A stretch of 44,420 nt of DNA from Pseudomonadota bacterium (GTDB lineage: Bacteria; Pseudomonadota; Gammaproteobacteria; JAKAQQ01). Position numbers and translations under genes: made by a program. Shown here one piece after another: positions 8,368 through 44,420 of this stretch. Position 1 is the first letter of the stretch. Each line of letters opens with the position of its first letter. The notes beneath the pieces are model-generated. The model saw only the letters and a list, made by a program, of their open reading frames with translations, had not been told where the DNA came from and made no database searches. The stretch covers positions 1 to 44,420 of the forward strand of contig JAJZYM010000001.1 of the NCBI GenBank assembly GCA_021798115.1. The letters are read 5' to 3'.

Positions 8368-9186
8368 TCATGATAAGGGATCGGCCCGGCGCCCGTCCCA
8401 CGGCCGCTGCGGGAGCCGGTAACGGCGGGGGTAACGAACGGCGAGGAGCACGAGTCCCTGGGCCGGGGCGGTCGGCCCGGCCCGCGTTCGGTCGCCGGAG
8501 GCGAGGACCTCGGCCAGCCAACCCCCCGGCCGGCGCTTGCGTCCGACCTCGAGGAGGCTGCCGACGAGGTTGCGCACCATGCGCTGCAGGAACGCGTCGG
8601 CCTCGACGTCGAACCAGACTTCCGGGCCTCGACGGAGGATCGCGAGACGGCGCAGCGTGCGCACGGTCGTCCGAGCCTCGCACGAGGCGGCGCGGAAGGC
8701 GGCGAAATCGTGTCGGCCGAGAAGCACCCGCGCGCCACGGCGCATGGCACGCACGTCCAAGGGGTCCCTCAGCCACGCTGTGCGCCGGGCGAGAAGCGCC
8801 GTGGGTTCCGGCCGGTTGAGGACCCGGTAGAGGTAACGCCGCGAGCGGGCGGAGCGGCGGGCGTCGAAATCGTCGGGCACCGGGCAGGCCCAGCGGACAA
8901 TGACCCCATCCGGTAGATGGGCGTTGGTTCCGCGGACCCAGGCTTCCGCGTCGCGCCGCGGTCCAAGATCGCAGTGCACAACCTGCTCCCGGGCGTGAAC
9001 ACCGGCGTCGGTGCGCCCCGCGGCCACCACCCGCACCGGATGCGCGGCCACGGCCGCGAGTGCCGCCTCGAGCGCGGACTGCACACTCGGCCGCGCGCCC
9101 TGATCCTGAAACCCGGCGAACCCGCTCCCGTCGTATTCGACGCCGAGGGCCCAGCGACGGAGCCCATCCCCGCCGTCTTCAGTCAC
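8368..9186 (-). CDS. truA: tRNA pseudouridine(38-40) synthase TruA
   Basis: TruA converts uridines 38-40 in the anticodon arm of many tRNAs to pseudouridine. The 272-residue protein starts [15 protein letters not shown] and has the catalytic aspartate in [11 protein letters not shown] (near residue 58). It also has the family segments RYLYRVLNR and [17 protein letters not shown]. The GTG start at 9186 overlaps the fimV stop by eight bases (GTGACTGA), which supports this start and suggests coupled translation. FimV-TruA adjacency is common in Pseudomonas and relatives. Confidence 0.97.
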
Positions 9187-11308
9187 GCAGGCGCTGCGAC
9201 AGCCTCTGCGCTTCTGTCCGCTGCTCGGCGGTTCCCTCTTTGAGCACCTCTTCGAGGAGGCCGCGGGCTCCGTCGTGATCGCCCATATCGAGATAGGCGC
9301 GGACGAGGCTGAGTTTGGTCGCCACGGCGTCGGTGGCGGTCGCGCCACCCGGCATGGGCTCGCCCGTCCCGGTCGCCGTGCCGGTGGCGGTGTCGCGAAG
9401 AGCCCGCAGCGATTCCTCGAACTGGCTCTGGGTATCCTCACCACTCTTCGTGCCGCCACCCGCCGCAGGCGCGGGCGCGGGCGTTTCGAACGACGCCAGG
9501 TCGATATCGAATTCGAGGGCGGTTTCGGTCGCGGTTCCGATCGTGGCTTCGCGCGAGAAGAGATGGCTGTCGTCGAGGCTCGCGGCGCCGGGCGATTCGA
9601 GCGCGGGCGGGGAGAGAAGCTCGTCGAAGACCGTCTCCACTTCGGTGGAAGTGTGGGCATCCCGGGCCGGTTCAGCGCGGGAAGCCTCCAGGCGATCCGC
9701 GACCCCCAGACTCTCCGCCCAGCGGGCGATCTCGGTGCCGTGGGCGTCGGGGCCGAACGATGCCCGGTGCGCCTCGGCGGCCTCGAGGAACGCTTCCGCC
9801 TCACGGGAATTGGCATAAACCTCGACCAGCTTGGCGTGCACTTCCTCGTCGCCCGGGTTCTGCTCGAGATACGAACGCAGATTGTCGACCGCCTGACCCT
9901 GAAGACCGTAAGCCAGAGAGAAGTCGACTTCCGCGAGAAGCGCGACGCGTTGACCCGTGGCGGCAGACGCCGGTTGTGTCTCGACCGCGGGTCGAGGCGC
10001 GGGAGGCGGCTCCGCGGTCGGAGACTCGGGACCGGAAGACACCTCCTCGGGTTCCGCGCTCCCGGGAAGGGAGCTGCCCACGAGTGTGGGGGCTTGAGTG
10101 AAATCGTCACGTCTCCCGCGCTCCCCCGCGAGGGGTTTCTCGGCACGGGCGGAGCGGCGCCGGAGAATCAGGGTGACGATGAGCAGGATGAGGAAAAAGC
10201 CGATGATCACGGGCACCCACGGGAACGACGAGGTGGGGCGGGGATGTACGGGAGCGGACGGGAGGGGTTTCGCGGCGGGTTTGTGCGCGAGCCGGGAGGC
10301 CTCGGCGTTCTGAACCACCAGGCGGTGACGAAGCGCGGCGATGGTCTTCCGGGCGCGGGCGAGGGCCGCCCGGCTCTTCGCGAGGCGGCTCTGGGTCGTC
10401 CGCAGACGCTGACGCAGACGGGCCACCGCGGCGGGCGCCGTGCGGGAAGAAACGACGGTCGGGGTGAGAAGCTCGAGCCCCCGGCGGGGCGCCACCGCGC
10501 GCGGCGCATGCGCCCACAGGCGATCCTCGCGCAGGACGAAGTCCACCGCCTGCCGCCGTCCCACGGCGGCGATCGCCCGTGCCGAGGGCAGACGCAAGAC
10601 GTAGCCGGCACGGAGAAGGTTGATGTTGCCGATGAAGGCGTGCGGGTTGGTCTTGTAGAGCGCCTCCATCATGCGGTCGGTCGTGACCCCCTGGGGACGC
10701 AGCCGCCGGGCGATCCCCCAGAGGCTCTGACCGGGACGGACGGGTCCGTAGACGTGCCGGAGCGGAGGGAGGGCGACGGCGGTCGAGGAGGGCACGGGCG
10801 TCGGAGGGGGGGGCGCAGACCGCGAGGGAGAGGGTGCCGGCGCGGGCGCGGCCGGACTCACGATGGCGGCCGGAGTGGAACGCGCGATCGTGAGCGGCGG
10901 ACGGAGAAGCACCGTGTAGCTACGCAGGAGCACACCGCTCGGCCAACGCACATGGAGCACAAAGCTCAGAAACGGCACCCGCAGTGGCCGCAGGCTGCGC
11001 ACGACGATGACCCCCCGGTGGCGGTGGTGCGGGACCGGAAGGACACGGAACTCAAGACCGTAGAGAACGGAGCTCTTGACGAGACCCAGGGCGGCAAAGC
11101 GGCGTCGGGAGGCAAGACGGACCCTGAGACCCCGAAGATCCGAGGGGCGCACACCCAAAATGGGGATGGTGGCGGAAAAATACTCGCCGATGCGGCTTCG
11201 GCTGTGGATCGATCCAAGACCCACGGCGCGAGCGGCGGGAGCTGCTCCGAACGCAAGAGCCAACGTGGCGAGGGCGGACAGGGCGAGTTGGGCTTTCGGT
11301 GTTCTCAT
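9179..11308 (-). CDS. fimV: FimV-family pilus assembly / polar hub protein
   Basis: FimV is an inner-membrane peptidoglycan-binding protein needed for type IV pilus assembly and polar organisation in Pseudomonas. The 709-residue protein has a signal peptide (ALSALATLALAFGAAPAARA), the FimV N-terminal domain (GLGSIHSRSRIGEYFSATIP), a LysM domain around residues 188-245 (VRPGQSLWGIARRL), a coiled segment, a transmembrane helix near 360-385, and an acidic cytoplasmic part. It ends with the FimV C-terminal TPR motif (KLSLVRAYLDMGDHDGARGL). I prefer the ATG at 11308, eight bases after GGGAGG; a GTG directly before it is an alternative. The asd-fimV-truA order is the usual one. It fits with the FimX-like gene at 18.6 kb. 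Confidence 0.96.
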   Translation of the reverse strand: MRTPKAQLALSALATLALAFGAAPAARAVGLGSIHSRSRIGEYFSATIPILGVRPSDLRGLRVRLASRRRFAALGLVKSSVLYGLEFRVLPVPHHRHRGVIVVRSLRPLRVPFLSFVLHVRWPSGVLLRSYTVLLRPPLTIARSTPAAIVSPAAPAPAPSPSRSAPPPPTPVPSSTAVALPPLRHVYGPVRPGQSLWGIARRLRPQGVTTDRMMEALYKTNPHAFIGNINLLRAGYVLRLPSARAIAAVGRRQAVDFVLREDRLWAHAPRAVAPRRGLELLTPTVVSSRTAPAAVARLRQRLRTTQSRLAKSRAALARARKTIAALRHRLVVQNAEASRLAHKPAAKPLPSAPVHPRPTSSFPWVPVIIGFFLILLIVTLILRRRSARAEKPLAGERGRRDDFTQAPTLVGSSLPGSAEPEEVSSGPESPTAEPPPAPRPAVETQPASAATGQRVALLAEVDFSLAYGLQGQAVDNLRSYLEQNPGDEEVHAKLVEVYANSREAEAFLEAAEAHRASFGPDAHGTEIARWAESLGVADRLEASRAEPARDAHTSTEVETVFDELLSPPALESPGAASLDDSHLFSREATIGTATETALEFDIDLASFETPAPAPAAGGGTKSGEDTQSQFEESLRALRDTATGTATGTGEPMPGGATATDAVATKLSLVRAYLDMGDHDGARGLLEEVLKEGTAEQRTEAQRLSQRLRD

Positions 11309-11366
11309 CACGGTGGCCTCCCGGGCCTTCGGGTTCGGGGATTCCTGCCTTCGGTTCCCCTTGGGA

Positions 11367-15361: not shown

Positions 15362-15904
15362 TCAGGATCCCAGCACGGGGAAGAGGGCGCGGGCCCGATC
15401 CGGGCGCAGGAGAGGTTCGAGGGCGTCGAGCCAGGCGCGGCAGACCGCTTCGAGTCCGTCCCGATCGACCTCGGTGAAGCGTCCGGGGCGCGGGGCGTCG
15501 AGATCGAGCACGCCGAGGAGCCTGTCCCCACGGATCAGGGGGAGGACGATCTCGCTGCGGGCACCGGGATCACAGACGATGTGTCCCGGGTAGTCATCGA
15601 CGTCCGCAACGAGGAGGGTGCGCCGCCCGAGGGCGGCGTCGCCGCAGACCCCGCGGCCGAACGGGATCGGCGTGCAGGCCGGAGCCCCCTGGAAAGGACC
15701 GAGATGAAGCGTCCCCTCCGCGGCGCGGTAGACGCCAACCCAGTTGACCTCCGGCAACGTGCGGGCAAGGAGCGCCACACCGTTGGCGACGGCGGCGAGG
15801 AGGTCCTCCTCGCCGGCGGTGAGAGCCGCGATTTGCCGGGCGAGAAGCGCGTAGCTTTCCTCCGGGCGTCCCGCGTCCCAAATCGGAGCCACGACTTCGC
15901 TCAC
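15362..15904 (-). CDS. msrC: Free methionine-R-sulfoxide reductase (GAF domain)
   Basis: This type of GAF-domain enzyme reduces free methionine-R-sulfoxide to methionine with thioredoxin as reductant, an oxidative-stress repair reaction in the cytosol. The 180-residue protein has the family pattern NWVGVYR, LGPFQGAPAC, GRGVCGDAA, HIVCDPGARSEIVLPL and GVLDLDAP. All three conserved cysteines (in PAC, GVCG and HIVCD) are kept, which separates it from plain signalling GAF domains. Its GTG start overlaps the epmA stop by four bases, so it is probably co-transcribed with efp and epmA. Confidence 0.93.
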   Translation of the reverse strand: MSEVVAPIWDAGRPEESYALLARQIAALTAGEEDLLAAVANGVALLARTLPEVNWVGVYRAAEGTLHLGPFQGAPACTPIPFGRGVCGDAALGRRTLLVADVDDYPGHIVCDPGARSEIVLPLIRGDRLLGVLDLDAPRPGRFTEVDRDGLEAVCRAWLDALEPLLRPDRARALFPVLGS

Positions 15905-16857
15905 GGCCCCTCCTCACGCCAGGGGTGGAAGGGCACGACGGCCTCGAGACCATCGAAGCCGAGCGCCAGCGCAAGAAGCCGGTCGAGTCCAAGGGCGACG
16001 CCGGCGCAGTCGGGAAGCCCCGCCTCGAGCGCGGCAAGAAAGGCCTCGTCCCACGGCGGGACCTCGAGCCCGAGACGGCGGCGGCGGCGGGCCTCGTCGG
16101 CGAACCGGCGGCGTTGCTCGACGGGCTCGGTGAGTTCCCAGAATCCGTTTGCGAGCTCGATGCCGCGGAAAAAAAGTTCGAACCGCGCCGCACGCGGCGG
16201 GGGACCCGGACGGAGACGGGCGAGGGCGGCCTGTTCCGGCGGGAAATCCACGACAAACACGGGCCCGTCCCCACCCAGTCCGGGAAAAACCTGGGCGCTC
16301 ATCAGGGCGTCGAGGAGAACCGTCCGCTCTTCGCCCTGATGAAGACGGATGCCCCGCTCCCGGCAGAGGGTACGGAGCACCTCGTCATCCGCTTCTTCGA
16401 GATCCACGCCGAAGACGTCGGCGAAGAGTGTGTCGTAGGCGATCGTGCAGAGCGGGTCGCGCCGGCCGAGCATCGCCGCGAAGTACTCGTGCACTTCTTC
16501 GATCAGACGGCGATCATCGTAGCCCAAGCGGTACCACTCGAGGAGACGGAACTCGGGAAGGTGCCAGCGCCCGGACTCTTCGTCACGAAACACCGGACCG
16601 AGGGCGTAGAGATCCCCGTAGCCGGCCGCGAGGAGACGCTTAAGACCGTACTCGGGCGAGGTCGGAAGATAACGGTGGCCGAAGCGGCCGTGGACACGCA
16701 GCGCGGCGAGATGCGGGTCCGGGGGGGCGGCCCGGGCGAGGAGCGGCGGATCGACCTCGAGGAGACCCCGCGTGTCGAAGAAGGCCCGGGTCGCGGCGTA
16801 AAGACGGGCGCGGGCCTGGGCCGTCGCCCGCGTCGCGCACGGCGCCCAAGCGTTCAT
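15901..16857 (-). CDS. epmA: EF-P--(R)-beta-lysine ligase EpmA (GenX/PoxA)
   Basis: EpmA is a lysyl-tRNA synthetase-like enzyme that attaches (R)-beta-lysine to the conserved lysine of elongation factor P. The 318-residue protein is only the class II catalytic core, without the anticodon-binding domain of true LysRS. It has motif 2-like [20 protein letters not shown] and motif 3-like [15 protein letters not shown], plus [17 protein letters not shown], which is typical of the family. The ATG overlaps the efp stop codon (ATGA). With epmB on the other side of efp, the substrate-making enzyme, the ligase and the acceptor protein are all next to each other. Confidence 0.97.
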
Positions 16858-17423
16858 TCCTTGGCGCGGGCCACGTACTCGCCGCTTCGCGTGTTCACTT
16901 TGATGAGTTCGCCCTCCTGAACGAAGAGCGGCACACGGACGCTCGCTCCGGTCTCGAGCCGGGCGGGCTTGCCTCCGCCCCCGGAGGTGTCCCCGCGCAC
17001 CCCCGGGTCGGTCTCGACGACGCGCAAGACGACGGTGTGCGGCGGCATCACGGCCAGCGGCCGGTTGTCCCACAGGGTGAGGACGCAGACTTCCTCACCC
17101 TTGAGCCACTGCTCGGCGCCCGCCATGGCGACGGCGTCGGCCTGATACTGCTCGAAGGTCTCGGGGTGCATGAAATGCCAGTGCGTCCCGTCCTGGTAGA
17201 GATAGCGCATCTCGACGTCGACGATGTCGGCGGCCTCGAGGGCATCGCCGGATTTGAACGTGCGCTCGACGGTCCGCCCGGTCCGGAGGTTGCGCAGGCG
17301 CACACGGTTGAACGCCTGTCCCTTGCCCGGCTTGACGAACTCGTTCTCGACGATGGCGCAGGGTTCGCCGTCGAGGAGGACCTTGAGGCCACTCTTGAAT
17401 TCGCTGGTAGTATAGGTCCCCAT
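16854..17423 (-). CDS. efp: Elongation factor P
   Basis: EF-P rescues ribosomes stalled on consecutive prolines. The 189-residue protein begins [20 protein letters not shown] and ends VDTRSGEY-like ([15 protein letters not shown]). The modified loop reads VKPGKGQAF, with the acceptor at Lys34, the position beta-lysylated by EpmA/EpmB in E. coli. The other domain signatures ([22 protein letters not shown]) are normal. It is transcribed divergently from epmB, with 75 bases between their start codons, and leads into epmA and msrC. Confidence 0.99.
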
Positions 17424-17498: not shown

Positions 17499-18536
17499 AT
17501 GATAGCGGCTCCCGCGCTGACAAACCCGCACGACGTCGAGACCCCCGCCGACGGCGAGGACCGCGCGCCGTGGCGGCAGGCCCTCGCGCGGGCGGTCCGC
17601 GAACCGGGCGAACTTCTCGACCGCCTCGGTCTCGACCGCGAACGCTGGCTCGAGCCCGCCCGACGCGCGGCCCGCGACTTCGGTCTCCTCGTTCCCGAGC
17701 CCTATCTTGGGCGCATCCGCCACGCCGATCCGGCCGATCCCCTTCTCCGCCAGGTGCTCCCGCTCGTCGAAGAACTCGCCCCCCCTCCTCCGGGCTACGT
17801 TCCCGATCCTCTCGGGGAAACCCTTCTTCCGGGCGGTGAAGGGGTCCTGGCCAAATACCAGGGGCGGGCTCTCGTCGTCACCACAGGACTCTGTGCGGTG
17901 CACTGCCGCTACTGTTTCCGCCGCCATTTCCCCTACCCTCCCCGCCCGCGGGGCCCCGACCCGGCGGTGCTCGCACGCCTGCGGGCTCTGCCGGAACTCC
18001 ACGAAGTCATTCTGAGCGGCGGCGATCCGCTCACACTCTCCACACGCCGCCTGAGCGAGTGGTCCCAGGCGCTCGTGGATCTCCCCGGTCTGCGCACGCT
18101 TCGCCTGCACACGCGTCTTCCGATCGTGCTGCCCGCCCGTGTCGACAACGCCCTTCTCACCTGGATCGAAACACTTCCGTGGCGGCCCGTGCTCGTCGTG
18201 CACGCCAACCATCCGCGGGAAATCGACGCCGAGGTCACCCGGGCCCTCGCCCGTCTCACCGCGGCGGGCGCCCGGCTTCTCAACCAGAGCGTCCTCCTGG
18301 CCGGGGTGAACGACGACCCGCACGTCCTCGCCGAGCTTTCCTGGACCTTGTGGGAGGCGGGCGTGCAGCCCTACTACCTCCACCGCCTGGACCCCGTCGT
18401 CGGCGCCGCCCATTTCGCGGTGATGGACGAGCGTGCGCACGCCATCGTCCACGCGCTCGCGGCCCGTCTCCCCGGCTACCTCGTCCCGCGTTACGTCCGG
18501 GAAGAACCGGGCGCGGCCGCCAAAATTCCCGCCTGA
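17499..18536 (+). CDS. epmB: EF-P lysine 2,3-aminomutase EpmB (radical SAM)
   Basis: EpmB turns (S)-alpha-lysine into (R)-beta-lysine, the substrate EpmA ligates to EF-P. The 345-residue protein has the radical SAM cysteine motif [15 protein letters not shown] near residue 131 (C-x3-C-x2-C), [10 protein letters not shown], the lysine/PLP region with [13 protein letters not shown], and [19 protein letters not shown] lysine would be expected near the C-terminal third; I did not locate it with certainty. The ATG at 17499 was chosen because homology begins soon after it; the open frame upstream runs opposite efp. No EpmC hydroxylase gene is seen nearby. Confidence 0.95.
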
Positions 18537-18551
18537 CCTGATTTCTGCCCC

Positions 18552-20609
18552 GTGGACACACCCGACACCGCCCGGACCGCCAACCTCATCGTCGTGAGCG
18601 AGGAGCCCGAAGCCGCGGCCGCCCTCACCTCACGTCTGCGCGCCCAGAGGCTGGCCGTCGGAGTCGAGCATCTCGCCTCACCCGAAGATCTCGACACGCA
18701 TCCGATCCAGGGTGAAGATATTGTCGTCTGGGACGCCCGGAGCTCCTGGCCGCTGCGCGAGATCGCCTCCCGCCTCGCCGCCCGCCATCTCGATCCCCCT
18801 CTTCTGGCGCTGCTGCCGACGCTCGAGCCCGCCCGCCTCGCCCCCCTGGCCGAGGAAGGCGCCCGCGATCTCATCGCCCTCGACGCCCCCGAACACCTGA
18901 GCGCCATCGTCCGCCGCGAACTCAAGGTAGCCGGCGCCCGCAGCGAACGCCGACGCCTGAACGAGACCTGCCTCGAGCTGCGCACGAATTGGGAAACGAC
19001 CCTCCACGCCCTCCCGTTCCCCGTGGCGCTTCTCCAGGACGGAACGCACGTTTTCGTCAACGACGCCTATCGGGCGTTCTTCCGCAAGGAAGACCTGGAC
19101 GACACGCCCTTTCTCGGGCTCTTTCCGAAGAGCGAGCACGAGACCCTCAAGAAGGCGTTACGCGCGGCCGTGCGTGCCGGTGGCAATCAGGCCGCCCTTG
19201 AGATCAGCGTGGCCCATCCCGACGATCCCAAGGGCGGTGTGGTGCGGCTTCTCCTTTGGCCCGAAATGCGCGAGGGTGTGCCCGTCGTCCTCGCGTTCTT
19301 CCAGCCTCTCACAACCCCACCGCCGCCGACGGAACCGGCTCGGGAAGAGACCGGCGAAGCCGCGAGCGCAAGCGCGGGGACCCCGGCGCTTGAGACACCG
19401 GCCCGATTCGTTGCGCGCATCGAAGAGTACCTGCGCTCGAGCCCGCCCAAAAAAACGGACCAGGCCCTCCTGATGGTCGGGGTCGACGACTACGTCCGTC
19501 TCGTCGACAACTACGGACCGCTCGTGGGCGAATCGGTTCTCAAGCAGGTCGAGCAACGCCTCGTGCGTGAGCTCCTCCCGCTCGAATTCGCCACCCGTCT
19601 CGGTCGCGACCACTACCTCTGGCTGCAGCGCCCACGCGGCGATGGTGTCGAGCTCTTCGCCCAAGGCCTGGTGGGGCACCTCAACAGCCACGTCTACGAA
19701 TCCGGGGAATACTCCCTCACCATCGTGACCCGGGCGGGTTGGGCGGATCGCCACCAGTGCCGTGGGGTCTGGGACCTTGTCCGTGCCTCCCACAACGCCT
19801 ACCTCCGCGGTGGTCAGGAACCGGTGAGCCGCCACATCCCAAGCGTGGCCGGCATCGAAAACGCCGAGCAGACGGCCGCCATCTTTCGTCGCCTTCTCGA
19901 AGAGCACCGTCTCGGACTCAGCGTCACCACCCTGCAGGCGGTGCGCACCGGCCCGTCTTCCAAACCCGTCATCGTCGACAGCGCTCCGGACGAACCCCTG
20001 AACCAGCTCGCGCGTGCGGACCTCTTCAAGATCGTCAAACGGGCGGGACTCCTGCGCGCGCACGACCGCTGGCTGGTCGCCCAAGCACTCGTACGGGGCG
20101 CGGCCCTCCTCGCCCGTGGTTCGGCGTCCCTTCTGGCCGTGCGTGTCTCCGGCGAGACCCTGGACGATCAAGAATTCCTGCCCTGGTTCGAGAAGCAGGC
20201 CAGAGAAGCCGTCCGGGGCAAACTCCTCCTCCTGGTGAGTGAACGCTCGGCCGCCGGCCGGCTTCGGGGGCTACAGGCCTTCGCCCAGGCCGCTCACCCC
20301 TTGGGGATCGCCATCGGATTGAGCGAGTTTGGTTCGGGCCCTCAGGCCGCGGGCCTCCTGCGCTACATCCGCCCGACGCTCGTGATCCTGGATCCCCAGC
20401 TCGGTTCGCAGTTTGCGGAATTGGCCGCCCTGACCCCGCAGAAACGAGCGGCGGCCGGGCCTCTCGGCATCCTTCTCGAGACCTGCCGCGCCGAGAACAT
20501 CCCGCTCGCCATGGCGGGTCAAACCATCGAGGAACTCAAGCTCGCCCACGACCTCGGCATGAGCTACGTTCTCGGGAGCACCCCGGAACTCCTGCCGCCG
20601 TCGGGCTGA
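18552..20609 (+). CDS. FimX-like REC-PAS-GGDEF-EAL protein, catalytically degenerate
   Basis: The 685-residue protein starts at a GTG 15 bases after epmB. Its layout is a receiver-like domain (about residues 12-125), a PAS domain (about 145-245, [13 protein letters not shown]...[11 protein letters not shown]), a GGDEF-like domain (about 275-430) and an EAL-like domain (about 440-680). The diguanylate cyclase signature is replaced by GRDHY at residues 351-355, and the EAL signature by IVD near 474-476. The later EAL metal-binding aspartates are also gone (SEFGSG where DDFGTG is usual). Size and layout match FimX of Pseudomonas and Xanthomonas (about 690 residues), an inactive c-di-GMP receptor that promotes type IV pilus assembly. 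Function is inferred from architecture; FimV in the same window supports it. Confidence 0.82.
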
Positions 20610-20638: not shown

Positions 20639-22903
20639 TCAGTCGGTGAGGACGGCGAGACGGAGCGTCGAAGCCCGCGCTGACCAGAGGGCGGGAAGCG
20701 GCCGTCCGCGTGTCCCCCGTCGCCCGCGGTAACGCCCGAGGGTCGCCGGATCGAGCACGAGTTGATCCTCGCCGTCGATGAGGCCGAGGCGCTCCCCGGA
20801 GGCCAGAGGTGCCGCGCGGAGAAGCTCGCTCCCCTTGGCGGGGACGACGAGCCTGGCGCCGCGACCGCGGGCGCGGCGCGGGACCTCCTCACGGTCCAGG
20901 ACAAGAAGACGTCCGTCGGCGGTCAGAAACGCCAACTGCACGTGCGGCGGCTCGAGTCCGAGGAGCACGCGGGCGGCGGCGCGGGCGCCAAGCACACGGC
21001 GTCCGGCCCGCAGGCGCACGGTCAGTCCGTCGGCCCCGGCCACGAATCCGTAGCCGTCGGCCGCGGCCAGAAGGGCCTCGCCCCCGTCGGGAAGAAGCGC
21101 GAGCCCCACCGTCCGGGCCCCGGGGGGAAGCTCGAGCCTGCGGGTGACGGGCTCGCCGTCTCCGCGGGCCGACGGGAGAGCCTCCACGGGCAGGTTGTAG
21201 ACACGTCCCCCGTCGTCGAGGAGAACGAGCCGGTCGCGGCTCCGCCCGCGGGAGGCAGCGAGAAGGCGATCGCCGGTGCGGAACGACAGGCTCCGCGGCT
21301 CGAGGCCGTGGCCTTTCCCGACACGAATCCATCCCATTTCGGAGAGGACCACGGTCACGGGCTCGCTCGCCGCGGGCGGCGGCCGGGCCGGTGCCTGCGC
21401 GCGCTCTTCGCGGGCGTCGAGAAGCGGGGTCCGACGCGCGTCGGCGTGACGTGCCCGATCGGCCAGAATCTCCTCGCGCAACAGGCGGTCGATGCGGCGC
21501 GGGGCGGCGAGCAGCGTCTCGATCCCGTCCCGTTCGGCGGCGAGAGCCGTGCGCTCTTCCGCCAGACGACGTTCCTCGAGCCGGGCGAGCTGACGGAGAC
21601 GGATCTCGAGCAGCGCGTCGAGCTGGCGGGGCGTGAGATCCAGGAGGGCCGCAAGCGACGGACGCGGATCGTCCTCACGGCGCAGGATCGCGATCACCTC
21701 CTCGAGCCGCGCAAGGGCGCGGCGGTACGCCTCGAGAATCTCGAGCCGCTCGGCGATGCGCGCCGCCCGCCACTCGAGACGCCGGCGAACCGTGGCGCGG
21801 CGGAATTCGATCCACTCGTGGAGAAGCACCAACAGCGGCTTGACCGCCGGGCGGCCGTCGAGTCCGATCATGTTGAAGTTGGCGCGAAGCGTCCGCTCGA
21901 GTCCCGGGACGATCGCCCGCGCCTCGGCAAAGACGGCGGCCGGGTCGGCCCGTCCGCGAAGCGCGAGGACGAGTCGGACGGGATGCTCGCGATCGGATTC
22001 GTCGCGCACGTCCTCGATCCACGGAAGACGCCGCGCCTCGACCGCGCGGGCCAACCCCTCGAGGACCGTGCTCAGACTCGTCTGGTAAGGCAGGGCGTCG
22101 AGGACGAGCGCGTGGTCCTCGGCGTGCCAGGCGGCGCGTTGCCGCAGCGTGCCCGCTCCCTCGGCGTAGAGGCGGCGCAGTTCCTCCGGGTCGATGAGGA
22201 GCGGAGCGTCGGTCGGGTAGTCCGGGCCGCGCACACGGGCGAGGACCTCCTCGAGCCCCGCCCGCGGCCGCTCGAGCAAGAGCACGAGGGCATCGGCGAT
22301 CTCTCCGAGGTTGTGCGGTGGGATGTCGGTCGCCATGCCGACGGCAATACCGCTCGCCCCGTTGAGAAGGACGTGGGGAAGGCGCGCGGGAAAGAGCCGG
22401 GGCTCGCGCAACGTCCCGTCGAAGTTCTCGGTCCAGTCCACCGTGCCCTGGTCGAGTTCGGCGAGAAGGATCTCGGCGAAGGGCGCGAGGCGGGCCTCGG
22501 TGTAGCGCATGGCCGCAAACGATCCGGGATCGTCGAGAGAACCGAAATTGCCCTGACCGTCGACGAGCGGGTAGCGGAACGAGAACGGTTGCGCCATGAG
22601 CACCATAGCTTCGTAGGCGGCCTGATCACCGTGCGGGTGGTACTTGCCGATGACATCGCCCACGGTGCGTGCCGATTTTTTGGGTTTGGCGCCACCGTGG
22701 AGCCCGAGTTCGTGCATCGCGTAAACGATGCGCCGCTGCACGGGTTTGAGGCCATCGGCGAGGTGCGGGAGCGCCCGGTCGAGAACCACCGCCATCGCGT
22801 AGTCGAGATAGGCGCGCTCGGCGTACGAACCAAGCGGTTCCTCGACGACCTCGGCGGTGAGAGCAGGCGCGCTCGGACGGGGGCGGCGGGGGCGCGGAGG
22901 CAT
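20639..22903 (-). CDS. parC: DNA topoisomerase IV subunit A
   Basis: ParC is the DNA-breaking subunit of topoisomerase IV, which unlinks daughter chromosomes. The 754-residue protein has the breakage domain with [50 protein letters not shown] and the catalytic tyrosine in [10 protein letters not shown]. It ends in a degenerate beta-pinwheel of Gly/Arg-rich blades, as in ParC rather than GyrA (no GyrA box seen). The quinolone-region residue equivalent to E. coli Ser80 is glutamine. The ATG overlaps the addA-like stop codon by one base. It is the last gene of the pepP-to-parC operon; parE is not in the window. Confidence 0.96.
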
Positions 22904-40433: not shown

Positions 40434-41804
40434 TCACCGTGCCCGCACAAAGGTCAGATAGTCAATGCCCTGCAAGTCTCGAGACAGCATGGACAGACCG
40501 AGAAGGTCGGTGATCAAAAGGGATCCAAGGAATCCCAGCCCGTAAAAGAAGGGACCCAGCACCAATGTCATCCCTGTCAAGAGAAAGTTTCCAATCAGGA
40601 AGAGCAGCGTCAGAAGAACGGTCCGTCCGCGTAGATCAAGGTAAAAATAGACATTCAACAAGCTCATCAGAAGCAACTGCAGGCTCGTGCCAATGACATC
40701 AAACCGGAAAAGCCGTACATAATTCCCGGAATATCCCAGATGGGCAAGCAAGGACCTGGCAAAGACGAGCGCCAACACCACCGTAATACCCTGAATCTTG
40801 GCGATATCCCAGAGACCGGTCCGTGTTGCCTGAATCATGCCCAACTTCGCCCCTCGCAGTTCAGCGTAGGTCCCTCCTCCGACAATGGCGCGGTTGTAGG
40901 CGTCGTAAGCCTCGACAAAATCCGTTTCCATGCGAAACAGAAAAACCGCCAACCCCGGCACAATCAGAAGGTAGCTCAGAAAAATGGGAACATCGTAGAT
41001 GGGAGACGCACGCAGGGGGCCGATGATTGCCACACTGGTACTGGGATAAAACCAAAACCAGAACTTGTCGGTCCAGACCGCCAGATTGAAGGCCACGCCC
41101 GCCAGTGACAAAGACCAGAAGAGACGATTGGCCCGTCGCTCTGGCCAGTGTATGGGACCAGGGAATTGCCGTATGACAAGTATCCCAAGGCCCAGAAGGA
41201 GTGTCAGCTGGCCAAGGGCAAACGCCAAGAGATAACCATCCAGGCCGTACCGACGTCCCAGAATCAAACCCAATCCGACCACCAAACCGTAAGCCAAAAG
41301 ATACCCCATGACCAAGATCTTGTAATCTTTCAGGCTGGTGCCCAGGATCGTCAAGATCCAAACCCCGCAAAGCTCGACAAAAGCGATCCCCATGAGCACC
41401 TGATACAGCCAAGGGGTTCCATCAAAGAAGAGCCGCAATGCCGCCGCCGCAAACAAGGCTCCCGGCACGACGGCGCTGACCAGCATGGTCAAGAGCACAG
41501 TGACCACCGAACGGGCTTGACGCGCGAACAGCATATCGGCGATGTATCGGGTGAAAGGCAGCTGCAGCGCGCCGGTAAAGATCAAGGAAACGGCGATCAG
41601 ATAGGTCACGGAAACCTGAAACTCGATAATTGATCCGCCCGTGGCTCGATCACCGAGCGCAAGAAATCCCAAGAGAAGAATGCCAAAGATGGACAGGAGC
41701 CACGGGCCGGACGACGCGAGACCGGCGTAGCCGTAGGCCTCCGCCATAGCGAGATAGCTTCTCCGCTTCAAGATACGCCGTAACTCGAATCCGATACCGG
41801 CCAT
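40434..41804 (-). CDS. pelG: Pel polysaccharide membrane protein PelG
   Basis: The 456-residue protein is very hydrophobic, with about 12 membrane-spanning segments, and resembles Wzx/MOP-type transporters. It starts MAGIGFELRRILKRRSYLAM, the PelG N-terminus, and has the family segments EAYGYAGLASSGPWLLSI, WTDKFWFWFYPST and FLFRMETDFVEAYD. In Pseudomonas aeruginosa PelG forms an inner-membrane complex with PelD, PelE and PelF that makes and moves the Pel chain. The ATG lies two bases after the pelF stop, so translation is coupled. Confidence 0.96.
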   Translation of the reverse strand: MAGIGFELRRILKRRSYLAMAEAYGYAGLASSGPWLLSIFGILLLGFLALGDRATGGSIIEFQVSVTYLIAVSLIFTGALQLPFTRYIADMLFARQARSVVTVLLTMLVSAVVPGALFAAAALRLFFDGTPWLYQVLMGIAFVELCGVWILTILGTSLKDYKILVMGYLLAYGLVVGLGLILGRRYGLDGYLLAFALGQLTLLLGLGILVIRQFPGPIHWPERRANRLFWSLSLAGVAFNLAVWTDKFWFWFYPSTSVAIIGPLRASPIYDVPIFLSYLLIVPGLAVFLFRMETDFVEAYDAYNRAIVGGGTYAELRGAKLGMIQATRTGLWDIAKIQGITVVLALVFARSLLAHLGYSGNYVRLFRFDVIGTSLQLLLMSLLNVYFYLDLRGRTVLLTLLFLIGNFLLTGMTLVLGPFFYGLGFLGSLLITDLLGLSMLSRDLQGIDYLTFVRAR

Positions 41805-41806
41805 GC

Positions 41807-43303
41807 TTACCCCGCCGAGACTTCTTCAAAAAGGCGTCGATAGCGCCCGAACATTTGCTTTTCCTGGTACTGACTTTCCACCCGAGTCATGGCATTCCGG
41901 CTGCAAAGGTCCCAGCGTTTCTCGTCGTCGAGAAGAGCGGCCATGGCGGCCGCAAGAGTCTTGGGATCGGCAATCGGCACGACGATGCCAGCCGGAGCCT
42001 CACCCTCAGAGGTCGCGTTCCCGTAGAGAAGTTCCCGACAAGCCCCGGCATCGGTGGACACGACAGGCACACCCGCGGCAAAGCTCTCCAGCACCGAAAG
42101 AGGCAATCCTTCGCTGATGGAACTGAGGATCGTCAGTCTCACCACCGACAAGATCTCCACGACAGAGCGAAAGCCGAGAAACCTTACAGAACTCTCCACA
42201 CCGAGATGTTCCACCAGAACCTGACATTCGGCGTGATACTCTTCATCCTCCTCCGAGGATCCGACGATCCAGAATTGGGTCTTGCGACCTTCTTGCCGCA
42301 GCAGGGCCGCGGCACGAATGAAGGTTTTGATATCTTTGATCGGAACCACTCGACCGATCAGCGCCACCGCGTCTTGTCGCTGCGCGAAAGGGCGCCGCGC
42401 GGGCAGGAAGCTCTCCACGTCGATTCCGTTAGGGATCGTGAGCAATTTTTCTTCGGCGGCGCCGCCCTGCAGTTGCAAGGGGATCACCCCTCCGTACAAA
42501 TTCACGATGCGTCGAGCCTGCTGGTAGGCAAATCGGCCAAGAAACTCGAAGAAATCGATCCAGAGTTGGCGCAAATAATGAATCTGTCCGGGACGCCGTA
42601 AAAAATCCTCGTCCTCGTGAATCCAGCGAGCCAAGAGGAGATCAATACGTCGTTCCTTTGTGTAGATCCCGTGCTCGGAGATGATCAACGGACAGTCCAG
42701 ACGGGCCGCCAAAAGCGCACCCAGATAACCTGCATAACCCGTGGAGGGCGCGAGAAGAATCCTGGCGCGTGGAGCCGCTCGCAACGCCTTGCTCAAGGTC
42801 CACAAAGGGCCATGCATGGCTCGTACGGCCCAGAAATAATCCACGAATGCCGGTTGATCGGGAATCTCCGCGTATCGCTGGAGAAGATAGTTCCAGACGG
42901 CCGGCGAACGAAAGAATTCCTCGCGGCTCACGCCAAAGTTTTCCGCCAACCCGGAATCCTGCCGTGGCAAAACTTCTCCGTTGAGACACGCCTTCATTTC
43001 CAGGTGGGCATTGTGAATCGTACCGTCATCAAAGCGGGTTCGGATCGGACTCCCGGTGGCAATGGGATCCGTCTCGTCGTAAAGGAAATATTCCGCATAG
43101 TAGTCGACGTTCGCGGGCAGCGGGTAAGGCAAGCTGCGACGGTAGTCGGATCTTGCGCTACCTAGAAAAATAATCCCAAATCGACGATCGGAAAATCCCT
43201 CAATGATGCGTTGAACCCAGGACGATACTCCACCCCGCACATACGGGAAGGTGCCCTCCAAGAGCAACAGGATGTCCGTGGTCGCGGCGGCTCTCCGTTC
43301 CAT
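41807..43303 (-). CDS. pelF: Pel polysaccharide glycosyltransferase PelF
   Basis: PelF is the cytosolic GT4 enzyme that polymerises Pel from UDP-activated N-acetylhexosamine. The 498-residue protein begins with TTDILLLLEGTFPYVRGGVS followed by SWVQRIIEGF, the PelF N-terminal signature. It has SEHGIYTKERRIDLLLARWI, IPNGIDVESFLPAR, LIGRVVPIKDIKTFIRAAAL and the donor-site segment LSSISEGLPLSVLESFAAG, with the EX7E motif glutamates. The ATG overlaps the pelE stop codon by one base (TGATG). An open frame continues upstream of the ATG but has no family resemblance. Confidence 0.97.
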   Translation of the reverse strand: MERRAAATTDILLLLEGTFPYVRGGVSSWVQRIIEGFSDRRFGIIFLGSARSDYRRSLPYPLPANVDYYAEYFLYDETDPIATGSPIRTRFDDGTIHNAHLEMKACLNGEVLPRQDSGLAENFGVSREEFFRSPAVWNYLLQRYAEIPDQPAFVDYFWAVRAMHGPLWTLSKALRAAPRARILLAPSTGYAGYLGALLAARLDCPLIISEHGIYTKERRIDLLLARWIHEDEDFLRRPGQIHYLRQLWIDFFEFLGRFAYQQARRIVNLYGGVIPLQLQGGAAEEKLLTIPNGIDVESFLPARRPFAQRQDAVALIGRVVPIKDIKTFIRAAALLRQEGRKTQFWIVGSSEEDEEYHAECQVLVEHLGVESSVRFLGFRSVVEILSVVRLTILSSISEGLPLSVLESFAAGVPVVSTDAGACRELLYGNATSEGEAPAGIVVPIADPKTLAAAMAALLDDEKRWDLCSRNAMTRVESQYQEKQMFGRYRRLFEEVSAG

Positions 43304-44217
43304 CAACACTCCGCGCCCAGCCAGAACCCACAAGACGCACCGTAGCGAGGGGAAATCAAGATCTCCGGATGGCGTTGATAGGTCTCCCGCAGCGCCTGCA
43401 GATCCCCAAGGAGAAAATACGCAGCGGCCCGGTGCGCGGCGAGGATGACACTGTCGACTCCTTTCTGTTGCGCTGCATCGAAGCACTCGATGGCGGCGGA
43501 CGCGTGAGCGCCTTCCAAGGCGCGAAGTCCCAAAAGAAAAAGAGGCTCCTCGCCTGACACGGCGGTGTTTTCAGACCGTCTGGGGACATCCGATTCTGTG
43601 AGAAGAACCCGTGGATCCGCCAGCTCTTGAGACACGGAATGGTCGATATTCCAATGCAACCAGGCCAGGTAATCCCGGAGCCTCTGAGACACCGGCCCTG
43701 GTGGACACTGGGCAATCTGTCGTTGCAAATCGATGAGTATTTCTGTATTTTCCTGTTCCCGTTGATCCAGGGCGGCGTAGGCCAGAAGGCGCACCTCTTC
43801 CGCCTCGTCCTGAAGAGCATGTCGCAGCAAACGCAGCTGCTCGGCGAAACGAGAACTCGTGATCAGCGACAGGGCTCCCAGCCGCTGTTGTGAATCTTCG
43901 GCTCCCTGCAAACGTGCGGCGATCGCCCCGGGGGCCACTTGCGTGGGTCGCAAACGAAAATCCCGCACGGGCGGTGGCACTACGATGGGTTCCGTCTCGG
44001 CTTCGCCCATTCGATGCGCAATGGAGCGCAAGGTCACGGCATAGGCCAGAGTCAACGCCGCGCCGACGAGAGGCAACGCCAAGCACAACAGCCCAAAGAG
44101 GAGAACGGCCAAACCCCGATCCTTGCGATCGGCGACAGGCACAAGGATGGCGGCCGCAAGAATCACCACCATTGAGATCAAGATCGGAATCCAAAGGTCC
44201 ATCATGAGCCGGTGCAT
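43303..44217 (-). CDS. pelE: Pel polysaccharide inner-membrane protein PelE
   Basis: The 304-residue protein has two N-terminal transmembrane helices (about residues 8-28 and 36-62) and a soluble, helix-repeat C-terminal part with TPR-like stretches (LGLRALEGAHASAAIECFDA and HRAAAYFLLGDLQALRETY). This matches PelE, which links PelD to PelF/PelG in the Pel synthase complex. Between pelD and pelF the position is the expected one. The ATG at 44217 overlaps the pelD stop by one base (TGATG). Confidence 0.93.
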   Translation of the reverse strand: MHRLMMDLWIPILISMVVILAAAILVPVADRKDRGLAVLLFGLLCLALPLVGAALTLAYAVTLRSIAHRMGEAETEPIVVPPPVRDFRLRPTQVAPGAIAARLQGAEDSQQRLGALSLITSSRFAEQLRLLRHALQDEAEEVRLLAYAALDQREQENTEILIDLQRQIAQCPPGPVSQRLRDYLAWLHWNIDHSVSQELADPRVLLTESDVPRRSENTAVSGEEPLFLLGLRALEGAHASAAIECFDAAQQKGVDSVILAAHRAAAYFLLGDLQALRETYQRHPEILISPRYGASCGFWLGAEC

Positions 44218-44420
44218 CACAAACGCCACTCCAGCCAATGAGCGATCTGCTCTGCGGCAGGGCGGGTATCGACCGGCAGGAAATCCGCACGTACAAAGGC
44301 GGCTTCCCAGTGATTCGCGCAGTGCTTCTGCATTTCCACCTCCACCCTGGTCCTTTGCCCTTCAGCAGCGACAGGCCCGGCAAAGGGAAGCAAGATGAGC
44401 GCCGACAAATATTCCCCTTC
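44217..44420 (-). CDS. pelD: PelD, C-terminal part only (runs off the window)
   Basis: The last 67 codons of a gene that continues beyond the right edge. The visible part reads EGEYLSALILLPFAGPVAAE ... WEAAFVRADFLPVDTRPA, then EQIAHWLEWRL. This fits the end of the degenerate GGDEF domain of PelD, the inner-membrane c-di-GMP receptor of Pel synthesis. Its place just before pelE is where pelD lies in the pelABCDEFG operon. The c-di-GMP-binding RxxD motif would be upstream, outside the window, so it cannot be checked here. Identity rests mainly on gene order. Confidence 0.8.
   Translation of the reverse strand, partial: EGEYLSALILLPFAGPVAAEGQRTRVEVEMQKHCANHWEAAFVRADFLPVDTRPAAEQIAHWLEWRL

Follow-up and report, generated by a model that had tools for sequence, protein, structure and literature searches.

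The locus described here raises the question of whether a FimX protein can remain in service on a type IV pilus after the residues with which it holds cyclic diguanylate (c-di-GMP) have changed. The window, by which we mean the whole stretch of 44,420 nucleotides that was analysed, makes up the opening 44 kb of contig JAJZYM010000001.1 (317 kb) in the 1.88-Mb, 97% complete genome of a Pseudomonadota bacterium (GCA_021798115.1). A gene at 18552..20609 on its plus strand had been described from the letters alone (the original prediction) as encoding an inactive FimX-like protein, beside the genes that modify elongation factor P (EF-P), which should neither make nor break c-di-GMP and may not bind it. 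Intact catalytic residues, or a place outside the FimX clade, were named as findings that would speak against this description, and a search for PilZ and PilB partners was proposed. We found that the protein is a genuine FimX orthologue by tree, synteny and fold. It is likely, in our judgement, that it represents a c-di-GMP-blind FimX of a small-genome gammaproteobacterial family, most probably still acting as a scaffold or activator of PilB, the type IVa extension motor.

The gene, its domains and the signature positions were located as follows.

18552..20609, plus strand: fimX orthologue, 685 amino acids (aa), GTG start, 15 bp behind epmB
18582..18881, plus strand: REC-like domain, about residues 11–110, then a long helix at 113–153 (AlphaFold2 secondary structure and alignment)
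19023..19307, plus strand: PAS domain, about residues 158–252 (AlphaFold2 model; ratio of nonsynonymous to synonymous substitution rates, dN/dS, 0.08)
19398..19832, plus strand: degenerate GGDEF domain, about residues 283–427 (Pfam and model; dN/dS 0.044)
19602..19616, plus strand: GRDHY at the GGDEF signature, residues 351–355 (GDSIF in Pseudomonas aeruginosa FimX)
19863..20606, plus strand: degenerate EAL domain with the fold retained, about residues 438–685 (model; Foldseek match to FimX EAL 4afy)
19968..19982, plus strand: VIVDS, residues 473–477, against P. aeruginosa EVLLR (E475–R479), that is E475V, L477V and R479S (alignment; strand 473–478 of the model)
20385..20387, plus strand: I612 in place of K616 (alignment)
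20514..20522, plus strand: A655-G656-Q657 in place of F652-V653-E654 (alignment)

The FimX layout and length that had been claimed were borne out by alignment and model, the REC-PAS part aligning over its full length; the FimX layout spans about 690 aa. Pfam recognised the EAL domain (4.5e-14) and, weakly, the GGDEF domain (1.7e-5), and the closest relatives in the PDB by sequence search were FimX chains (best 7lkq, 6e-9). The REC-like domain is without the acidic pair and the conserved lysine of receivers, and the PAS domain retains G164 and N170, which are invariant across all FimX compared. We also observed that in the family an aspartate closes REC strand 3 (WD; 18720-18734 in the window), which most other FimX do not have, even though the acidic pair and the conserved lysine are missing from these family proteins.

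An AlphaFold2 model, built on an alignment of the window and locus sequences, contained all four domains (mean predicted local distance difference test score 87.8) in the order REC-like, long helix, PAS, GGDEF and EAL, with a flexible linker at residues 255-274 between PAS and GGDEF; their relative arrangement is uncertain, as the predicted template-modelling (TM) score was 0.50. When the EAL part alone was searched with Foldseek, the best PDB matches were all FimX (4afy, 3hv9, 4fok, 4ag0 and 3hv8), with the P. aeruginosa EAL domain 4afy on top (TM 0.83 by target length, root-mean-square deviation 2.7) and the c-di-GMP complexes 3hv8 and 4fok among them. Consistent with the sequence alignment, residues 473-478 form the strand that bears the EAL motif.

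For the phylogeny, full-length homologues were gathered from the same GTDB family (25–27% identity) and from many other families of the class, and the GGDEF-EAL parts of P. aeruginosa and Xanthomonas citri FimX were added from PDB chains. A set of 17 other GGDEF-EAL proteins, 12 of them from genomes of the same family, was included. In the likelihood tree, a quick one without bootstrap in which the family branch is long, the seven family sequences from three genera formed one clade with a Shimodaira–Hasegawa-like approximate likelihood-ratio (SH-aLRT) value of 100. This clade was nested in a 92-row FimX clade (SH-aLRT 100) that includes P. aeruginosa and X. citri FimX, and the 17 other proteins stood apart. 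The window protein thus lies inside the FimX clade. Synteny was read from the following neighbours, whose local order is epmA and efp (minus), epmB and fimX (plus), and parC (minus).

15901..17073, minus strand: open reading frame (ORF) containing epmA, its true start inside, near 16850 (TIGR00462, 329 bits against a cut-off of 287)
16854..17423, minus strand: efp, elongation factor P (Pfam EFP_N, EFP and C-terminal domains)
17499..18536, plus strand: epmB, EF-P lysine 2,3-aminomutase (TIGR03821, 392 bits against a cut-off of 369)
20639..22903, minus strand: parC, topoisomerase IV subunit A, downstream landmark of fimX (synteny)

At 44 of the 53 FimX loci of other families, at least one of epmB (37 loci), epmA (18) and parC (23) sits where it is expected and on the expected strand, and all three are present at the family loci on sufficiently long contigs. 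None of the 17 control paralogue loci, most of which have shorter flanks, carries any of them. Tree and synteny together ruled out that the protein is a paralogue. Of nine family genomes, eight have the gene, and the one without it is 73% complete.

The GGDEF signature reads GRDHY directly, as claimed, and with neither GGDEF nor GGEEF the domain is not predicted to be an active diguanylate cyclase. Of the ten positions essential to EAL phosphodiesterase activity, as in RocR, nine are changed in the window, the metal ligands among them as had been noted, and one is left (E564, equivalent to E268). Judged by its metal and catalytic residues, the domain would therefore not be an active phosphodiesterase, and the catalytic residues were not found intact. 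The EAL motif itself is gone. The IVD originally given for it is one residue off register, without consequence, because in the MAFFT alignment P. aeruginosa E475-V476-L477 corresponds to V473-I474-V475, so that the EVL-type residues are absent as stated. Residues, tree, synteny and fold all point to a FimX-like protein that would neither make nor break c-di-GMP.

A lost EAL motif is indecisive by itself for binding, because c-di-GMP is bound by X. citri FimX despite its QAF and by LapD despite its KVL. The c-di-GMP contacts of P. aeruginosa FimX are L477, R479, D507, E654 and Y673, together with F652, which stacks against the base, and pGpG is contacted by K616, Q565, S595 and Q596 (PMC3527489); a modelling paper gives an overlapping set of contacts (PMC12292220). 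The numbering was verified against every letter of the PDB chain. At L477/R479/D507/E654/Y673/F652 the window has V/S/D/Q/S/A, and at K616/Q565/S595/Q596 it has I/L/S/E. The changes are thus E475V, L477V, R479S, K616I, F652A, E654Q and Y673S, and on the pocket residues of a FimX-type receptor (L477, R479, D507, F652, E654, Y673 and K616) D507 alone is kept, as D505. The loss of R479, K616, F652, E654 and Y673 is the telling part, and to the doubt about c-di-GMP binding that had been raised, the in silico answer is probably not.

All seven family sequences are eroded at the pocket. Five relatives in two other genera have L477R, R479G/S/N, K616R, F652D/G, E654D and Y673T/S/P and, unlike the window, retain the glutamate at 475. 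Among 83 other gammaproteobacterial orthologues, R479 is kept in 71, D507 in 80, K616 in 78 and Q461 in 79. At five core pocket positions, which were picked after the table had been seen, the family keeps one or two residues; 59 of the 83 others keep all five, 15 keep four, eight keep three and one keeps two. Ten orthologues outside the family have neither arginine nor lysine at 479, and parsimony on the tree counted nine changes between R/K and other residues there, the family included. Only the family and one further sequence, L154 (genome G158, family f13), have two or fewer core residues. L154 stands beside X. citri FimX in the tree, carries R479L, D507N and a DTS motif, and is an independent candidate for a c-di-GMP-blind FimX near the best-studied system. 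Our literature search aimed at non-binding FimX homologues, in a coverage that leaves out most subscription journals, showed no such report among the papers listed.

The same positions bear on the reading that the pocket has been remodelled and that the substituted residues let the EAL domain go on binding c-di-GMP or some other nucleotide (pGpG, GTP or a different cyclic dinucleotide). The intact fold, the retained D505 (D507) and the strong constraint on the EAL domain would fit this, as would the binding by X. citri FimX and LapD despite degenerate motifs. However, the window has lost the arginine that follows the motif, as well as the lysine, the base-stacking aromatic and the carboxylate of position 654, and what replaces them varies between genera, unlike in a conserved new pocket. 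We regard a remodelled pocket as unlikely.

We searched the same genome for the proposed partners and found both. PilB scored above its equivalog cut-off and lies in a pilB-pilC-pilD cluster, PilQ and PilM are present, and there are several further ATPases of the T2SSE family. PilZ adjoins holB at G000:C34:57760-58131 (L093:1447-1818). It is a highly divergent type-II PilZ that Pfam PF07238 misses (best PDB match X. citri PilZ, 7.5e-16). The idea that the genus has no PilZ, suggested by PF07238, was ruled out when an alignment of the family PilZ found this protein. Its C-terminus is PTFTF (PTHTL or PTLTL in other genera of the family), hydrophobic as for the contact with PilB. Interface positions for PilZ and PilB were taken from PMC8389850. 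At the FimX-contact positions (X. citri interface 2) this PilZ has hydrophobic residues, with F49 replaced by L and L51 by I, and it also keeps W69; PilB keeps R103, L100, F108 and E132, with F101 replaced by M. PilB, a type-II PilZ and FimX are therefore encoded together in one genome, and the comparison of interface residues is mixed.

The divergence of FimX and of the genus PilZ, together with the missing PilZ contacts on the FimX side, would suit a FimX that has left the type IV pilus pathway for another role, in which case PilB would act by itself or solely via PilZ. Yet the genome keeps PilB, PilZ, PilM and PilQ, the gene is present in all family genomes but the 73% complete one, and it stays in its ancestral neighbourhood; we therefore consider such a departure quite improbable.

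Selection was examined against a sister species (96% identity). The dN/dS of fimX was 0.125 over the whole gene, 0.072 for EAL and 0.60 for the linker, with the GGDEF and PAS values given above; parC and epmB gave 0.061 and 0.176. Against a more distant congener, where saturation is higher and only the EAL part is comparable, EAL gave 0.35 and parC 0.15. The gene is under purifying selection and its catalytically dead domains are maintained; the value of 0.125 ruled out a pseudogene. A decaying relict under relaxed constraint, which long branches and the loss of many conserved columns might suggest, is hardly credible given open ORFs in the family members examined, this dN/dS, and GGDEF and EAL domains about as constrained as parC.

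We thus return to a c-di-GMP-blind FimX that acts on PilB, against which the following observations weigh. Outside the pocket, 42 of 76 conserved EAL columns are kept in the window, against one of five pocket columns (Fisher p 0.18), so that a pocket loss in excess of general divergence was tested and was not significant, and the family proteins have drifted in all domains. That the contact residues are lost is plain from the aligned sequences; a targeted, pocket-specific loss was not demonstrated statistically. The residues through which X. citri FimX touches PilZ (W445, M487 and M488) are conserved neither in the window nor in P. aeruginosa. In addition, replacing EVL by AAA in P. aeruginosa FimX abolishes PilB binding and the support of piliation (PMC5595344), and a c-di-GMP-blind FimX would therefore have to differ from the P. 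aeruginosa protein.

If this reading holds, the EAL domain would no longer hold c-di-GMP, partner binding would be independent of it, and FimX would act on PilB, possibly via the type-II PilZ. Regulatory input may now come through other domains (PAS or REC-like), or activity may be constitutive. Most simply, the family would retain the c-di-GMP-independent part of FimX function. The c-di-GMP response may be carried by a second pilus motor. An organism-wide loss of c-di-GMP signalling as the cause was ruled out by the GGDEF and EAL proteins, the PelD with RxxD and the MshEN motor encoded in the genome. One GGDEF-EAL ORF (G000:C34:36744-37937, 1081 aa) has a good GGDEF, but its EAL match is confined to the C-terminal half.

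A second pilus locus (G000:C36:183459-189876; L191:3460-9876) encodes a secretin, an AAA ATPase, an MshE-type motor carrying an MshEN domain and two copies of the motif, and a platform protein of the T2SSF type. It is likely an MSHA pilus directly responsive to c-di-GMP. We propose, tentatively and with rather less confidence than an even chance, that the whole family rewired FimX into a c-di-GMP-independent activator of the pilus motor and that control of pili by c-di-GMP was left to an MshE-type motor of its own; as pocket loss recurs elsewhere among FimX orthologues, the structural function would be what is conserved, and binding of c-di-GMP an optional addition to it.

As to the surroundings, the claimed adjacency to the EF-P modification genes was confirmed, with EpmB directly upstream, EpmA divergent and efp between them, and epmB and fimX likely form one transcription unit. 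A special link between fimX and EF-P modification was ruled out, since the same neighbourhood is widespread in other families; it seems to be where fimX ancestrally lay in Gammaproteobacteria. No paper joining FimX with EpmB was found in the same literature coverage. FimV is in the window as claimed (9179-11311, minus strand), but PelD lies mostly beyond it, only its C-terminus reaching the right edge (contig 44217-45506). The right end of a pel operon at 40434-44420 encodes PelG, PelF and a membrane protein that resembles PelE and has HEAT-like repeats. That pilus and Pel are controlled together is speculation.

Whether FimX needs c-di-GMP to work on PilB is unsettled: P. aeruginosa FimX does, and X. 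citri FimX activates in vitro without an effect of c-di-GMP. In its presence the ATPase activity of PilB-PilZ rises about threefold (PMC8389850), and adding c-di-GMP had no influence on activity (reviewed in PMC11656802). The pocket-less orthologues, in the family and in at least one X. citri FimX relative (L154), are natural tests of c-di-GMP-independent FimX function, and labelling every FimX as a c-di-GMP receptor would be incorrect for such lineages.

With P. aeruginosa FimX (PA4959) the window protein shares the four-domain layout and length, an inactive GGDEF, the EAL fold and the type IVa pilus context, and differs in the pocket contacts other than D507. X. citri FimX, of the PilB-PilZ-FimX complex, belongs to the same orthologous family, has the closest GGDEF-EAL (7lkq) and likewise occurs with PilB and PilZ; however, its pocket retains R (QAFLR), K and F, and it contacts PilZ with W445 and M487/M488, and the window has neither set. 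L154 shares a strong, independent pocket erosion, but it comes from another lineage and is otherwise close to X. citri FimX. LapD is likewise a GGDEF-EAL protein that lacks catalytic activity and serves as a binding module, but it keeps the pocket arginine (R450), binds c-di-GMP and is a HAMP-containing transmembrane receptor.
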